Shown piece after piece: positions 29,249 to 54,586 of a DNA stretch of 54,586 nt. The position numbers and the translations under genes are program-made. A model generated the notes under the pieces. It had not been told where the DNA came from. It saw only the letters and a program-made list of their open reading frames with translations, and did no database searches. The stretch comes from Gammaproteobacteria bacterium (lineage in GTDB: Bacteria > Pseudomonadota > Gammaproteobacteria > Pseudomonadales > Pseudohongiellaceae). The stretch lies in assembly GCA_030832825.1 (NCBI GenBank), contig JAURIJ010000016.1:1-54586 (forward strand), read 5' to 3'. Position 1 is the stretch's first letter; every line of letters starts with the position of its first letter.

Positions 29249-30523
29249 GTGAGCCTGACGCTGCCTGCCGAGCTGCCCGTGCTGATAGTCGGTGCGGGGC
29301 CGGCCGGCCTGATGGCCGCCGAGCAGATCGCCGCCGCAGGCGTGCCTGTCCATGTCATCGACGCCATGCCGTCGCCCGGGCGCAAGTTTCTGCGTGCCGG
29401 CATCGGCGGACTCAATCTCACTCACGCGGAACCCGCGTCCGACTTTCTGCAGCGCTACTCGCCGTGCGCTGCGGTGACCCCCTGGCTGCAGTGTCTGGAT
29501 GCCGAGGGTGTCCGCGCATGGGCGGCCGGCCTGGGCGTGGCTACCTTCGTCGGCAGTTCCGGCCGCGTCTTCCCCGTGGGACTCAAGGCCGCGCCCTTGC
29601 TGCGAGCCTGGCTGCAGCGTCTGCGCGCCGGCGGTGTCACCCTGCACATGCGCCATCGCTGGCTGGGGTTTGTCACGTCCGGTCTTGTCCCGCAAGATTG
29701 CAGAGCACATCACATCGAGACGCCAACGGGGGAACACCAGGTGTGTGCACGCGCCGTGGTCTTCGCGCTGGGCGGCGGCAGCTGGGCTCGCCTGGGCAGT
29801 GACGGACGCTGGCGCGAGCCCCTGCAGGCGGCCGGCGTGGAGTGTGCGCCGCTGCAGCCCGCGAATTGCGGATTCGACTACGCCTGGTCGGAAACTCTGT
29901 TGCAGCGCCACGCGGGCGCCCCCTTGAAAGGCGTGATGCTGCGGGTGTTCCAGAACGAGCAGGAGGTGTTCTCTCGCAAGGGCGAGGCCCTCATCAGTCG
30001 CCATGGCCTGCAGGGCAGTCTCATCTACGCCGCGTCGAGTCTGCTGCGCGAGGCCATCGCGCGCGAGGGCACCGTGACGCTGTGCTGGGATCTGTTTCCA
30101 AAGCGCGCGGAAGCGGATCTGCGGCTGACGCTGCAGGCGCCGCGCGGCAAGCAGTCCCAGAGCAGTTTCCTGCGCAAGCGTCTGGGGCTCGACGGCGTTC
30201 GGCTCGCCCTGGTGCATGAGCTGGCTGGCCCCACGCTGCGTGACCCGGCGCAGCTAGCCCGTGCGCTCAAATGCCTGCCCCAGACCCTGCGCGCCACGCG
30301 GCCGCTCGACGAGGCGATCAGCACGGCCGGTGGCGTCTCCCTCGCGCAACTCGATGGCGCGCTGATGCTCAGACACCGTCCAGGAGTCTTCTTTGCGGGA
30401 GAGATGCTGGACTGGGAGGCGCCCACCGGGGGCTATCTGCTGACGGCCTGTCTGGCGACTGGCAAACGGGCCGGGCAGGGCGTGCTGGGCTGGCTGCAAC
30501 GGGCTGCCACGCCTGCGGCCTGA
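29249..30523 (+). CDS. HI0933/BaiN-like flavoprotein (TIGR03862-type)
   Basis: A 424-residue FAD-dependent oxidoreductase. The dinucleotide fold VLIVGAGPAGLMAAEQ lies at 12-27, followed by PGRKFLRAGIGGLNLTHAE, the characteristic segment of the family. FALGGGSWARLGSDG and the C-terminal GGVSLAQLDGALM...GEMLDWEAPTGGYLLTAC complete the FAD site. Function in bacteria is mostly unknown; BaiN reduces bile-acid intermediates in gut species, but that is not implied here. Start is GTG at 29249, 22 bases after the GST stop. Confidence 0.9.
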   Translation: MSLTLPAELPVLIVGAGPAGLMAAEQIAAAGVPVHVIDAMPSPGRKFLRAGIGGLNLTHAEPASDFLQRYSPCAAVTPWLQCLDAEGVRAWAAGLGVATFVGSSGRVFPVGLKAAPLLRAWLQRLRAGGVTLHMRHRWLGFVTSGLVPQDCRAHHIETPTGEHQVCARAVVFALGGGSWARLGSDGRWREPLQAAGVECAPLQPANCGFDYAWSETLLQRHAGAPLKGVMLRVFQNEQEVFSRKGEALISRHGLQGSLIYAASSLLREAIAREGTVTLCWDLFPKRAEADLRLTLQAPRGKQSQSSFLRKRLGLDGVRLALVHELAGPTLRDPAQLARALKCLPQTLRATRPLDEAISTAGGVSLAQLDGALMLRHRPGVFFAGEMLDWEAPTGGYLLTACLATGKRAGQGVLGWLQRAATPAA

Positions 30524-31171
30524 TAAGGGCAGCACGTGGAAAAACACATAGCGCGCGTCGATGTCGACTCGGATCACGTGGCCGATCTCCCGCAGGTCGA
30601 TGGCGCGGAACAGGGCCTTGTACTCCGGCTTGAGCGAGTTGTAGATCACTTCCTGGACGATCAGGATGATGTAGAACGACATGCCCAGCGAGAGCGCATG
30701 ATCGTGAATGATGTGCTCGATGGCGGGGAGCTTGCGCATCTCCTCGTAGCGATAGGTCTGGATCAGCGCATCGCCGAACAGATCATAGGACTTGATGTCG
30801 CTGCTCTGGAAGTTGCCCTGCACGGAATTGAAGGCCAGTCCCATGGCGGCCTTGATGGGATTGCCGTAGCCGAAGCGTTCCACCTCTGCATTGAATTCTC
30901 GGGACATGATCAAGGCCGTCTCGACGGCATGGTCCGCCAGTGAGTGCGGATTATCGGCAATGAAGGGATAGCCGATGGAGCTGATGAAGCCGTCGCCGGT
31001 TTCCGTCAGGCGAAAGGCGCGTGCCTTCAGCGGATTGTGCTGATAGCCCTGCATGCAGATGTCAGAGAACGACCGGAACACATCCAGGAAGAAGTACTTC
31101 GTGCGCTCGTGCTTGATCTCGCTGGAGCGCTGCACGTCGAAGACATTGATGATGGCGCGCACTTTCTCCAA
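30254..31171 (-). pseudogene. Class III adenylate/guanylate cyclase-like domain, apparently truncated at both ends
   Basis: Frame readable as 305 residues from a TTG. Residues 1-215 resemble a class III cyclase core: Asp12 in INVFDVQ and Asp60 in TETGDGFISSIG lie at about the spacing of the two metal-binding aspartates, and SYDLFGDALIQTYRYEE matches the segment holding the transition-state Asn and Arg, but Asn is replaced by Ile while Arg141 remains. The frame is open only to a TAA at 31217-31219, so no membrane or sensor part precedes it. From residue 217 on it is antisense to the flavoprotein gene's conserved 3' end, so the original terminus is lost. It may be a remnant or a divergent stand-alone domain. 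Confidence 0.5.
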
Positions 31172-49340: not shown

Positions 49341-49559
49341 GAACGAGGAAAGTCCGCGCGAGCCTGCGTCAGCGTGAAAGGCGCCACAGTGTAGCAAAGC
49401 GCTCGCAACCTATCTGCAGAACTATAATTTGAGTCCTACAATTGATTCAGCACACATTCGAGATGCGTGCGCTCATTCTGTCTTCATGTCCTCGCCGCTA
49501 CCGCGTTGGTTTGCAGAATTCAGTGGTCTTTCGAAACATCGTCAGGGTATTCCTCAATC
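49341..49559. promoter_or_regulatory. Upstream region of the minor pilin operon
   Basis: A 219-base spacer, more AT-rich than its neighbours. TATAAT occurs at 49423-49428 (plus strand), but the sequence about 17 bases upstream does not match a -35 box, so an activator-dependent promoter for the pilin genes is possible. No RpoN-type GG-N10-GC pair was recognised. Confidence 0.3.
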
Positions 49560-49910
49560 ATGATGAACATGAATCAAATCAAAAGCCTTAACGTGCGCGA
49601 GATGATGGTTTTTGTCGGCACGATCGGCATTTTGTTAGCGGTGGGACCGCGCTTACCGAAGGACACAGCGTCGCGCGTTACCACTAAAGGCATTGTCAAG
49701 GCGCTGGTGAGCTATCTGAAGCGGGTTTGCAGGCAAGTGATCGAGCGTTGCGACGTACTAAGCATGCGAGCCAGCAGAGAAGGCGCCGATGCAGACGTCG
49801 GTACCTTCCGGCAAAGTCGCGCAAATAGCAATTCGACGAAAGCGCTATCTGTCGAGATCGCGTTGACCGGGCGCGGCTGTCGGATTCCTGAAGGCCTGGA
49901 TTGCGCATGA
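49560..49910 (+). pseudogene. Relic or highly diverged FimT/GspH-type minor pilin
   Basis: A 116-residue frame at the position where fimT/fimU normally begins a pilVWXY1 operon. VREMMVFVGTIGILLAVGP looks like a pilin N-terminal helix, with Glu at the +5-like position, and SRVTTKGIVKALVSYLKR resembles the following FimT segment. But the prepilin peptidase site (normally G-F/M-T-L-I-E) is absent: Ser replaces Gly and LNVR replaces the hydrophobic run. The C-terminal half has no pilin pattern, and base use is more AT-rich. Ends overlapping pilV (ATGA). Probably decayed, or a diverged gene from another lineage. Confidence 0.55.
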
Positions 49911-50398
49911 TGCGTGCACGACAGGGAGGCATGACCTTGATCGAAATCCTGGTGTCCCTGCTGATTCTCGCAATCGGCATGCTAGGCATGGCCGGGCTGC
50001 AGACAGTCAGCCTGCGCAACACTCAGAGTGCCTATCAGCGCACCCAGGCCGCCATCCTGAGCAATGACATCGTGGAGCGGGTGCGCGCGAATCTGCAGGG
50101 TGTGGAGGATGGCAGTTACAACAACGCCGCCGGTTCCATCACGGCTTCGTGCAACAGCATTGCCGGCTGCACCCCGGCGCAGATGGCCGCCAACGATGTG
50201 GCGGAATGGAAACGGGCGCTGGCTGCTGCGCTGCCCGGGGGTGAAGGAACGCTGTGCAATGATTCCACTCCCGCGGATGGCACCCCGGCCGCACCTGCCT
50301 GCGATAGTGTCGGCGACCTGTTCGCCATCAAGATCTGGTGGGATGCCGACCGCGATGGCACCGCCGAGAACCATTTAAGCATGAGTTTCCAGCCATGA
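49907..50398 (+). CDS. pilV: Type IV pilus minor pilin PilV
   Basis: A 163-residue prepilin with the peptidase site GG|MTLIEILVSLLILAIGMLG (cut after Gly8, Glu13 at +5). The helix continues LGMAGLQTVSLRNTQSAYQRT, with the PilV pattern. The C-terminal region holds paired cysteines (CNSIAGC and CNDS...ACDS). Works with PilW, PilX and FimU in the priming complex of type IV pili. It begins within the overlap ATGA with the upstream relic and overlaps pilW by four bases. Confidence 0.93.
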   Translation: MMRARQGGMTLIEILVSLLILAIGMLGMAGLQTVSLRNTQSAYQRTQAAILSNDIVERVRANLQGVEDGSYNNAAGSITASCNSIAGCTPAQMAANDVAEWKRALAAALPGGEGTLCNDSTPADGTPAAPACDSVGDLFAIKIWWDADRDGTAENHLSMSFQP

Positions 50399-51570
50399 CG
50401 ATGCCGATTGCGACTGCCCATTCTGCACCCGCCGGGCGCCGACCTGCGGGCCTGCGAGCACGCGGCTTCAACATGATCGAACTGTTGATCGCCATGGTGA
50501 TGGGGCTGAGTCTCGCGGCCGGCGTCATGCAGGTCTATGTGGGCAATTCCCAGAAGGAGCGGGATCAGGAAGCGCGCGCGCGGATGCAGGAGAACGGTCG
50601 CTATGCCATCAACTTCCTGGCACGCGAACTGCGGATGGCCGGCTATCTGAGCTGCCTCGCCAGCATTGAGGAAAGCGACATCAACAACATGCTCGACGGC
50701 CCACCACCTACCTTTCAACCCGATGCCGGCCTGCAGGGCTGGGAGGCGGAAGACACCAGCCCTGGTGACATCGCTCCCAGCACCGAGAATGTGGCCGTGG
50801 TGGTGACCACGGCCGGTGGCTGGGTCACCTCGGGCGGCAATGTCATGGATGCCACCAGCGCGGTGCCGGATTCGGACATCGTGCGTGTCTGGAATGCCTC
50901 GGGCAACGGCGCCACCATCAATTCCATCTCGCCCGGCGGCGCCATGACTGTGGTGAATTCCGGCATCGTCGACATCGAGGATGGCGACATCCTGCAGCTC
51001 AGCGACTGCGAGCGGGCGGACTGGGTGCAGGCCTGCAATGTGCAGGAGATCGGCGGCGGTGCCAGCATCAACTCCGTGCTCTCGTCCCGTTGTGTACCCG
51101 GCAACATCACCTCGCAGCCACCGGGCACCCAGGCCGGTGGCGAGCTGGTCAAGCTGCAGGGCACGATGATCTACGTGGGCAAGCGCGGCAATGTCCCCAC
51201 CAATCCGCCGGCACTGTTCCGGCGCGAGCTCAGCCAGACGGCCGCCGCGGGCACGCCGCAGGAGCTGGTCGAGGGGATCGAGAGCCTGCAGATTCTCTAC
51301 GGCATCAATGCCGACAACGACAACAAGAAGACGGTCGATGCCTATGTCACGGCTGATCAGGTCGGCGACTGGTCGCGGGTCATCAGCGTGCGCATCAGCG
51401 TGCTGGTGCAGTCCATCGAGGATGGCCTGATGCCGGCGCCGCAGGCCTATGTCTTCAATGGCGTGACCTATGACGGCGAGGCGGGCAATGGGGCCCGGCC
51501 CGGGGACAATCGCCTGCGCCGTGTATTCACCAGCACCATCACACTGCGCAATCGCGCGGTGGGGAGTTGA
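50395..51570 (+). CDS. pilW: Type IV pilus minor pilin PilW
   Basis: A 391-residue prepilin with cleavage site RARG|FNMIELLIAMVMGLSLAAG (after Gly24, Glu29 at +5). MQENGRYAINFLARELRMAGY is the usual PilW segment after the helix. The large C-terminal domain is rich in T, N and G. The start ATG overlaps the pilV stop; alternative ATG two codons later is possible. Long leader before the cleavage site (24 residues) is typical for PilW. Pilus priming with PilV, PilX and PilY1. Confidence 0.93.
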   Translation: MTMPIATAHSAPAGRRPAGLRARGFNMIELLIAMVMGLSLAAGVMQVYVGNSQKERDQEARARMQENGRYAINFLARELRMAGYLSCLASIEESDINNMLDGPPPTFQPDAGLQGWEAEDTSPGDIAPSTENVAVVVTTAGGWVTSGGNVMDATSAVPDSDIVRVWNASGNGATINSISPGGAMTVVNSGIVDIEDGDILQLSDCERADWVQACNVQEIGGGASINSVLSSRCVPGNITSQPPGTQAGGELVKLQGTMIYVGKRGNVPTNPPALFRRELSQTAAAGTPQELVEGIESLQILYGINADNDNKKTVDAYVTADQVGDWSRVISVRISVLVQSIEDGLMPAPQAYVFNGVTYDGEAGNGARPGDNRLRRVFTSTITLRNRAVGS

Positions 51571-51575
51571 GCCGC

Positions 51576-52160
51576 ATGTCGCGCCTGCCGCCGTCTGCCG
51601 TGGTCAAACCTGGGCACCTGTCTGCCCGCCAGCGCGGTGCCATCCTCATCTTCTGCCTGGTGTTCCTGCTGGTGCTCACCATGATGGGCGTGTCGAGCAT
51701 GGAGTCTGCAGTGCTCGAGGAGCGCATGGCCGGCAATCTGCAGGATCAGAATGCCGCCTTCCAGGCGGCGGAAACCTCGCTGCAGACGGCTGAGCACTGG
51801 CTTCTCGACCAGCAGTTCTGGCCCGAGACGAGCACCGATGGCAGCACCACAGTGTGGGAGCGCGACGCGGCGGACCCGGACAATTCCGACTCTCTGCACT
51901 GGTGGCAGGACGCGAGCCGCGACGACAGCGAATGGTGGGAAGACAATGCCATCGCGGTGGCGGGTGTCGAGGGCGTTGCCGCGGAACCGCGCTACCTCAT
52001 CGAAGAGCTGTCGGAGATCAGTACCGGGCAGTCGATCGCGATCGGCACGGGACAGGAACCCCGCGTGCGGGTGTTTCATCGGGTGACGGCGCGCGGCACT
52101 GGCGTCGGCGATACCACCGTGGTGCAGCTGCAATCCACCTTCGTCAAATCCTACGACTAG
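51576..52160 (+). CDS. pilX: Type IV pilus minor pilin PilX
   Basis: A 194-residue protein with site RQRG|AILIFCLVFLLVLTM (after Gly21); Glu at +5 is replaced by Phe, as in GspK-like tip subunits. The following SMESAVLEERMAGNLQDQNAAFQAAET is the PilX_N signature. The C-terminal half is acidic and tryptophan-rich (WWQDASRDDSEWW). Starts five bases after pilW stop; a TTG at 51567 is less likely. Links PilY1 to the priming complex. Confidence 0.92.
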   Translation: MSRLPPSAVVKPGHLSARQRGAILIFCLVFLLVLTMMGVSSMESAVLEERMAGNLQDQNAAFQAAETSLQTAEHWLLDQQFWPETSTDGSTTVWERDAADPDNSDSLHWWQDASRDDSEWWEDNAIAVAGVEGVAAEPRYLIEELSEISTGQSIAIGTGQEPRVRVFHRVTARGTGVGDTTVVQLQSTFVKSYD

Positions 52161-52175
52161 CGTGCAGAGGTGAAC

Positions 52176-54586
52176 ATGGACATTCGGGAAATCTGCAGAG
52201 CGATGGGGTGCTGGCTGTTGTCCCTGCTGGGCATCGCAGTGACGCCCCTTTTGCAGGGCTCGCCGCTGAGCTTGTCCAATGCGCCGCTTTTCCTCGGCGT
52301 CAACGTGGACCCTAACGTCTTCTTCATGGTTGACGACTCCGATTCCATGGACTGGGAGATGCTGACGAGGCCCCACAAGTACCAGGTCAACGACTTGGCA
52401 AGCGTCGAAGAGGCGCGCAACAATTTTTGCCTCTGGAAGAGCTCCTCCCGCACCTGCTCGTGTGCGAAGCGATGTTCTCACTCCGAAAATATGGTTCCCT
52501 ATGACGACAACTACAACTACCGCATCAGTAACAATGGGCTGCAGCAGAGCGAAGCTCATCTGCACGGCCAGAGTGGGTGTTCGCCACAATCCAACTTTAT
52601 GCGCTGCAATCAGGAGATGAGGTTTCTGACCTGGCCTCGTATGCTTAGTGACAGGCTCCCTGGAGCATGCAGCATTCGCACTTTCGTTACAAAACGCGTC
52701 TTCTGTTCGCTTACACACTCCTCGACTGGGATTCGCTACGGTATGACACTGGTCAGCGAATTTGCGATGCCATTGGTTCAAGTCAGTGGCTCCGATTTGG
52801 TGGAATACGAGGTGCAAATAAATTCATTTAAACAGAAGTTATACGGCTTCAAATTCCAGAATATCGGCAAGACTACGTGCCGCAGGCCGGAGCGCGGTGG
52901 ACGCCACGACTACAGTCTTTATTTCAGTCCCTTGCCCAATCAAGAGCCGACGAGTCTGCTCGATGACAACAACAAGCAGCACATGGTGACCTTCACCGTG
53001 GCCTTTGGTGCAAACGGCCTGCTCGTCGACACGGAAAGCGACGGCTGGCCCAACCCGCCGCTCGCCGTGAATGGCAACTGGGGCAATCCCTTCTCGGCGG
53101 ACCCGCAGAAGATCGACGATCTCTGGCACGCGGCCTACAACAGCAAGGGCGTGTTCGTGGCCGCGCAGTCGCCGCAGGAAGTGGTCGACTCCATTCAGGA
53201 TGCCCTGGCCAACATCGCCGACCGCGTGGGCTCGTCCGCCTCTGTGGCTACAAACTCGGGCACGCTGAATGCGGGCAGCTATCTCTACCAGGCGCGTTTC
53301 GACAGCGCCGACTGGAGCGGTCAGCTGCTGGCCTTCGCCATCAACAAGGATGGCAGTGTCGACCCGGGGCCCGACTGGAATGCGGCCGATGTGCTGGACA
53401 GTCAGAACTACAACAGCGGTCGTGAGATCATCTCCTTCAATCCGCTGGCCGACGTGATTCCGGGCGGCACGCCGGAAGGGCGGGGGGTGGCTTTCCGCTG
53501 GCCCGGGAACTACAAGTCGCCCAACGCGCTGACCGATCTGTCCACGGCGCAGATCACGCGGCTGCTGACCAATGCACCGCATCCGGCAGCCACCGCCATC
53601 GCGGCACAGATCACCGCCAATCAGAACTTCGGCCAGGCCATCACCGACTATCTGCGCGGCCAGACCAGCAACGAGGGCATCGGTTACGAATTCCGCACGC
53701 GCAACAGTGTGCTGGGCGACATCGTCAACTCCGACCCGCGCTATGTCGGAGCACCCTCCTTCCGCTACCCGGAGAGTGTGGCGCCCAAGTCCTACGCCGC
53801 CTTCAAGACCGCCAACGCCGATCGCGATGTGATGGTCTACGTGGGCGCCAATGACGGCATGCTGCATGGCTTCGACGAAGTCAGCGGTGAGGAGCGCATC
53901 GCCTATGTGCCCCACGCCGTGTTCCGCAATCTGCATCTGCTGGCCCGGCAGGACTATACCCACCGCTACTACGTCGATTCCGGCCCGAACATCGTCGACG
54001 CCTATCTCGCCACGATGGACGATCCGTCCAGTGTCACCGACGGTCTCTGGCGCAGTGTGCTGGTGGGGGGGCTCGGCGGGGGCGGACAGTCGGTGTATGC
54101 GCTGGATGTCACCAACCCCGACGCCTTTGACGAGGCCAATGCGGCCGATCTGGTGCTGTGGGAATTCGCCGACACCGACGATGTCGACCTCGGCTACACC
54201 TACGGCAAGCCGCAGATCGCGAAGATGGCCAACGGGCGCTGGGCGGCGGTCTTCGGCAATGGCTACAACAACACGGAAGCCGACGGCAATGCGAGCGGCA
54301 CCGGGCGGGCCGTGCTGTATGTGGTCGATCTGGAAACCGGCACTCTGATCCGCAAACTCAACACCAATGTCGGCGCGGCGGCGACTCCCAACGGTCTGGC
54401 CACGCCCACCCTGGTGGATTACAACGGGGATCTGGTGGTCGACCTGATCTATGCCGGTGATCTGCTGGGCAATGTGTGGAAGTTCGATGTCACCGACCCC
54501 AACCCGGCGCAATGGGACAGCGATTACAAGTCAGGTGCCAATCCCCGTCCGCTGTTCACTGCCGAGGCCAATCAGCCCATCACCAC
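52176..54586 (+). CDS. pilY1: Type IV pilus tip adhesin/assembly factor PilY1 (partial, unusual N-terminal region)
   Basis: Continues past the window end; 803 codons are visible without a stop. After a signal-like start comes PLFLGVNVDPNVFFMVDDSDSMDWE, the PilY1 entry to the von Willebrand A domain with a DxSxS-like metal motif. Residues about 66-245 are atypical: shorter than usual, AT-richer (52371-52910) and with nine cysteines. From about 246 the normal pattern resumes (KQHMVTFTVAFG, then VGSSASVATNSG), followed by the beta-propeller with VYVGANDGMLHGFD, VLVGGLGGGGQSVYALDV and the calcium loop DYNGDLVVD before YAGDLLGNVWKFD. The frame is consistent at both ends. It needs pilX and is likely cotranscribed with it. 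Confidence 0.9.
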   Translation, partial: MDIREICRAMGCWLLSLLGIAVTPLLQGSPLSLSNAPLFLGVNVDPNVFFMVDDSDSMDWEMLTRPHKYQVNDLASVEEARNNFCLWKSSSRTCSCAKRCSHSENMVPYDDNYNYRISNNGLQQSEAHLHGQSGCSPQSNFMRCNQEMRFLTWPRMLSDRLPGACSIRTFVTKRVFCSLTHSSTGIRYGMTLVSEFAMPLVQVSGSDLVEYEVQINSFKQKLYGFKFQNIGKTTCRRPERGGRHDYSLYFSPLPNQEPTSLLDDNNKQHMVTFTVAFGANGLLVDTESDGWPNPPLAVNGNWGNPFSADPQKIDDLWHAAYNSKGVFVAAQSPQEVVDSIQDALANIADRVGSSASVATNSGTLNAGSYLYQARFDSADWSGQLLAFAINKDGSVDPGPDWNAADVLDSQNYNSGREIISFNPLADVIPGGTPEGRGVAFRWPGNYKSPNALTDLSTAQITRLLTNAPHPAATAIAAQITANQNFGQAITDYLRGQTSNEGIGYEFRTRNSVLGDIVNSDPRYVGAPSFRYPESVAPKSYAAFKTANADRDVMVYVGANDGMLHGFDEVSGEERIAYVPHAVFRNLHLLARQDYTHRYYVDSGPNIVDAYLATMDDPSSVTDGLWRSVLVGGLGGGGQSVYALDVTNPDAFDEANAADLVLWEFADTDDVDLGYTYGKPQIAKMANGRWAAVFGNGYNNTEADGNASGTGRAVLYVVDLETGTLIRKLNTNVGAAATPNGLATPTLVDYNGDLVVDLIYAGDLLGNVWKFDVTDPNPAQWDSDYKSGANPRPLFTAEANQPIT

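Follow-up and report, generated by a model that had tools for sequence, protein, structure and literature searches.

Can the pilus tip protein PilY1 lose its von Willebrand factor A (vWA) domain while selection continues to maintain the rest of the protein? The question is raised by pilY1, the final gene of a 54,586-nucleotide stretch (the window), which is the entire contig C51 (JAURIJ010000016.1) of an uncultured bacterium of the Pseudohongiellaceae whose genome (G000) comprises 2.70 Mb in 72 contigs and is 90.9% complete. PilY1 is thought to join priming of the pilus, through its C-terminal domain, with adhesion and surface sensing, through its vWA domain. An earlier note on this DNA had proposed replacement of the tip domain by foreign or recombined DNA, with decay after a deletion as the alternative. 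Comparison with gammaproteobacterial metagenome-assembled genomes leads us to consider it very probable that the protein's own vWA domain has eroded in frame, the frame and the propeller remaining under purifying selection. The result rests on one fragmented assembly, and a PilY1 with a vWA domain eroded in frame is a variant of a known protein.

The gene occupies 52170..54584 on the forward strand, as do all pilus genes of the window described here, with 805 codons before its open reading frame (ORF) runs off the contig end. Its product matches the C-terminal PilY1 beta-propeller family PF05567 at residues 515-783 (53712-54518; E 3.5e-55) and the PilY1 structure 3hx6 both by sequence (E 4.8e-57) and by fold, and its position downstream of pilV, pilW and pilX is that of a PilY1/PilC tip protein in a pilV-W-X-Y1 minor pilin operon. 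The 3′ part lies on contig C53 and ends as in the closest relative, the congener G005; the full length of about 1045 residues is a sum across C51 and C53, two differing contigs. Residues are numbered from the GTG at 52170, whereas the earlier note started at the ATG at 52176 and runs two lower; the two structure models count either from that ATG or from the fetched start. Using codon-position divergence, alignment and 10-residue bins we delimited a mostly conserved start (52170..52379) with a signal-peptide-like helix, the first vWA strand and the DxSxS motif. It is followed by an unconstrained, in-frame vWA remnant of residues about 71-250 (52380..52919), assigned from alignments, codon-position divergence, simulation, tree and blastp, and by a constrained remainder (52920..54586), assigned from codon-position divergence, the place of PF05567 and the predicted local distance difference test (pLDDT) of an AlphaFold2 (AF2) model. 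The remainder holds the end of the vWA region with the motif VTFTVAFG (52986-53009), a linker and the propeller. Statistics for the middle segment were computed over residues 66-243.

The segment was said to contain no recognisable vWA sequence, a claim that did not hold up: by blastp (dbsize 1e6, composition statistics off) residues 71-166 (E 2.4e-9) and 167-243 (E 4.1e-9) match the vWA region of the close relative, with nucleotide identities of 0.60 and 0.54 in these two parts against a shuffle maximum of 0.34. A PilY1 search of 57 genomes, own included, identified long frames of 1238-1247 amino acids in eight congeners (G001, G003, G005, G006, G008, G009, G011 and G012) and one of 1232 amino acids in G014 of the same family. 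In a protein alignment of the window PilY1 with nine relatives the segment is colinear with their vWA residue by residue, family-invariant Trp, Tyr, Gly and Pro being replaced and some blocks gone. Identity to G005 is 92% in residues 244-805 but 56% in 1-168 and 32% in 170-247; in maximum-likelihood trees of the segment only, the window and G005 group together (support 98% for nucleotides, 97% for protein). Between 46111 and 54586 the DNA is 85.5-87.2% identical to G005, interrupted only at 49778-49824 and in the segment, and the vWA-containing N-terminus of a congener gave no second match anywhere in the own genome. The colinearity and the grouping with G005 argue that the segment is a remnant of the protein's own vWA domain and not foreign DNA. 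Pfam and NCBIfam scans of the segment gave nothing above cut-off, and a PDB sequence search matched neither the segment nor the relatives' vWA profile; the lack of a Pfam VWA match in the window PilY1 is uninformative because the four intact relatives scanned also gave none.

The gap that had been described as shortened is indeed so, with 218 residues from DDSDSM to VTFTVAFG compared with 335-456 in the 39 relatives of alignment A1, drawn from 62 open relative ORFs. By regular expression the spacing is 335-418 in 42 non-window loci carrying both motifs, a set from which 68 of 115 loci were dropped without a match and in which some genomes are counted twice. Three more distant relatives outside A1 (L064, L065 and L084) have shorter matched regions, with a TDG motif recognised by eye. 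Two in-frame deletions relative to G005 were located: one of 405 nt, its junction placed by DNA alignment at 52676..52677, the window protein lacking the helix at 288-302 in the relative's model, and one of 165 nt, its approximate junction placed by protein and DNA alignments at 52900..52902, which removes the TDG motif plus the strand preceding it. Of the metal-ion-dependent adhesion site (MIDAS) the DxSxS motif is present as DDSDS (52332-52346; DDSGS in the nine aligned relatives), while the GTPL Thr is aligned to Lys at residue 234 and the TDG Asp is deleted; we take the MIDAS Thr and Asp, by our own assignment, to be those of GTPL and TDG. A regular-expression count of MIDAS motifs in 67 sequences was too strict, missing motifs of the relatives, and was not used as evidence. 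A frameshifted remnant was also considered and rejected, pairwise DNA alignments with raised gap-opening cost and default global ones both being free of small indels in the segment.

Divergence from G005 at the three codon positions is 0.404/0.365/0.483 over the 178 codons of residues 66-243, compared with 0.077/0.077/0.338 over residues 1-65 and 0.044/0.036/0.294 over 528 codons downstream, the last of these showing the propeller part to be under purifying selection. Over all positions the segment diverges by 0.418, much like a 502-site stretch upstream of pilV that takes in the decayed fimT (49398-49900; 0.369); 149 sites ahead of fimT (49401-49550) give 0.470. Changes at codon positions 1 and 2 were polarised at sites with agreement in at least 6 of 7 outgroups, and the window and G005 branches received 88 and 6 in the segment (251 sites), 5 and 0 in residues 244-265 (36 sites) and 11 and 9 in residues 266-805 (872 sites). 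Of the positions invariant in the nine relatives the window PilY1 retains 19 of 63 within the segment; the corresponding counts are 21 of 24 for residues 1-65 and 246 of 248 for residues 266-805. These comparisons indicate that the vWA domain lost amino-acid constraint after the split from G005, the closest sampled congener, and that its drift since then has been roughly neutral in rate. In a neutral simulation G005 codons were mutated at the substitution frequencies observed, and the segment lies within 1.4 sd of the outcome in hydropathy, charge, aromatics, glycine, proline and cysteine. It thus evolves like sequence free of constraint, and nothing special is needed to account for its cysteines. 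The nine cysteines reported for the gap do fall in residues 66-243, an excess of six over the aligned G005 residues; their number is within chance (9 vs 5.9 +/- 2.3), and a new cysteine-rich domain was rejected. The segment is AT-richer, as had been noted, its GC content being 0.50-0.54, with 0.61-0.66 on the flanks. The diverged stretch upstream of pilV is likewise AT-richer (GC 0.50-0.57), a resemblance as expected of DNA without constraint.

Family sequence continues in the same frame beyond the segment, the frame being open throughout. About 7 stops are expected in the segment by simulation and 0 are present (P 0.00045 and 0.00065 in two runs), and over residues 66-265 the other two forward frames contain 4 and 5 stops and the three antisense frames 2, 11 and 12. 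The lack of stops, together with the in-frame nature of both deletions, points to selection on what lies downstream. Structure prediction, also suggested earlier, agrees for the propeller, with pLDDT blocks mostly 83-96 over residues 401-790, and returned no confident fold over the segment; a fold search of the window model gave no vWA entry among the 50 matches listed.

Several observations weigh against in-frame erosion as the whole account. The window model contains a helix-strand-helix piece at 170-224 (pLDDT blocks 47-67), and the relative's model is also poor over residues 72-144, where low confidence says little. In residues 1-65 the window branch has 6 polarised changes and that of G005 has 0 (97 sites), so constraint may have weakened somewhat at the N-terminus as well. 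With the tree fixed, the branch to the window is about twice as long at positions 1 and 2 of the segment (0.54) as at flanking four-fold sites (0.26), which leaves room for something faster than neutral, with some positive selection; summed over both sister branches the segment (0.57 vs 0.76) is not faster, and four-fold sites may be slowed by codon bias. Nei-Gojobori (NG86) estimates are dN 0.53 and dS 1.17 for the segment and dN 0.037 and dS 0.585 for residues 266-805, and we read these together with the branch lengths as lost constraint with slower, codon-biased synonymous sites. The 421-bp overlap of window 54166-54586 with the end of C53 has 15 mismatches, and a second haplotype may be present in the assembly. 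Published laboratory work adds to this: without its vWA the P. aeruginosa protein gave no twitching, few surface pili and partial phage clearing (PMC8806160); the M. xanthus protein had no function and twitching was abolished, with few or no pili on the surface, the protein nevertheless being incorporated and still pulling down minor pilins (PMC9109919; PMC7541494); and twitching of A. baumannii depends critically on the N-terminal half of its protein, which also has a part in competence (PMC10374093). On these results a working PilY1 without vWA is not a given.

Published proteins also offer likenesses. C-terminal domains of Kingella kingae PilC1/PilC2 alone were enough for piliation and transformation but supported neither adherence nor twitching (PMC9000118); they too are propellers without the N-terminal adhesive domain, but are laboratory constructs, whereas the loss in the window is natural and the remnant is still in place. 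M. xanthus PilY1.1 and PilY1.2 are natural PilY1 proteins without vWA, but bear another N-terminal domain, DUF4114 (PMC9109919); no replacement domain was recognised in the window PilY1. Natural variation is also concentrated in the vWA half of Acinetobacter ComC, but the variants compared there are described as retaining a vWA scaffold and MIDAS (PMC10374093), unlike the window PilY1. Relative to P. aeruginosa PilY1 and the congeneric homologues (PF05567), the vWA core of the window protein is partly deleted and eroded, with the GTPL Thr and TDG Asp changes given above. No report of in-frame vWA erosion in PilY1 was found in the accessible parts of the literature on PilY1, vWA, relaxed selection, domain loss and pseudogenes.

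The neighbouring minor pilin genes pilV (49901..50398), pilW (50338..51570, ORF from the first GTG) and pilX (51567..52160) were identified by profile matches and are open and constrained, with divergence from G005 at codon positions 1 and 2 of <=0.088. Upstream of them lies a fimT/gspH-like minor pilin remnant (49560..49910), recognised by alignment to G005 and profile scans, with a 62-codon in-frame deletion and 52% amino acid identity to G005. Its GspH and N_methyl matches are gone, the G005 copy matching GspH above and N_methyl below cut-off; two other GspH-family matches occur in the own genome, on C53 and C50. With 1.8 stops expected (P 0.16), the openness of the fimT frame could be chance, and its divergence at positions 1-2 (0.31, 0.22) is lower than that of the segment. 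A PilT-family gene (L129, G000:C4:122015-122725, minus strand), presumably pilU, has a 284-aa frame vs 389, 401 and 409 in three relatives, an in-frame internal deletion of about a quarter of its length having taken out the Walker A region. Among 14 genomes of the genus, own included, PilQ and PilT-family matches were found in 14 and PilY1 in 10, with no PilY1 found in G002, G004, G007 and G010 despite their PilQ and PilT-family genes. The own genome has a ComEC-family gene, as do 10 of 14 control genomes.

We propose that after the split from G005 the vWA domain was released from amino-acid constraint, that two in-frame deletions stripped core elements, the TDG aspartate among them, and that the remaining sequence drifted, the frame surviving because any stop or frameshift would cost the protein its propeller. 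PilY1 would most likely still be exported and prime pilus assembly via its C-terminal domain, and the published vWA deletions suggest a pilus without an adhesive, force-sensing tip, incapable of adhesion or surface sensing. Evolution would then appear to have split priming from adhesion and sensing inside one live gene, a natural test of whether PilY1 without vWA can persist. A more tentative extension, which we hold possible though doubtful, is a pilus retained for assembly only (DNA uptake or secretion), in which propeller, PilV, PilW and PilX are selected, the vWA domain, fimT and the pilU-like motor decay, and the remnant serves as a frame-preserving spacer.

Erosion of one domain in a maintained gene has to be weighed against decay of the whole. 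The gene is unlikely to be a young pseudogene of a vanishing pilus, open only because decay is recent: the degenerate fimT, the pilU-like gene deprived in frame of its Walker A region, the patchier occurrence of PilY1 than of PilQ and PilT-family genes and the changes in residues 1-65 would all suit this, but the segment has already diverged to the neutral level and still has no stop, changes in residues 266-805 are not clearly in excess on the window branch and pilV, pilW and pilX are still constrained. That positive selection has made of the segment a new cysteine-rich binding tip is very unlikely, since, despite the longer window branch and added cysteines, dN is below dS, cysteines, charge, aromatics and hydropathy match the neutral simulation and the segment has no confident fold. 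An assembly or strain-mixture artefact might be looked for in a window that is a whole contig and whose end differs from C53; it is most unlikely, as identity to G005 continues across the flanks, misassembly is not expected to yield substitution-only, frame-keeping divergence and fimT, 2.5 kb upstream, has decayed in a like manner. That foreign or recombined DNA replaced the tip domain, an idea to which the lower GC and the abrupt shift in identity at both edges lend some credit, is extremely unlikely: the segment is colinear with that of G005 and groups with it in the tree, its changes lack the third-position concentration of a divergent functional allele, and tblastn searches gave no match in 72,556 plasmid records and, in 50,697 phage records, chance-level matches only (10 records, the best with E 0.3 and 23.7% identity). 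A foreign insertion, which should lack homology to the host gene family, was rejected on the same colinearity and clade. The alternative of decay after a deletion came close to the mark; we would add that a single domain bears most of the decay and that the frame has survived. Decay of this kind can be mistaken for a foreign domain swap, since neutral drift in a frame held from downstream can by itself lower the GC content and produce odd codons and new cysteines.

Some further observations were made. G013 has a different, weaker PilY1 match, and a PilB/GspE-like ATPase gene of the own genome (L130, G000:C61:30666-31478, minus strand) carries a single in-frame TGA. The cyclase-like neighbour matched no Pfam family. 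Of the gene at 30254-31171 of the window (minus strand; no Pfam family) only the C-terminal part was found; its congener homologue has an N-terminal part of 245 residues, largely hydrophobic.
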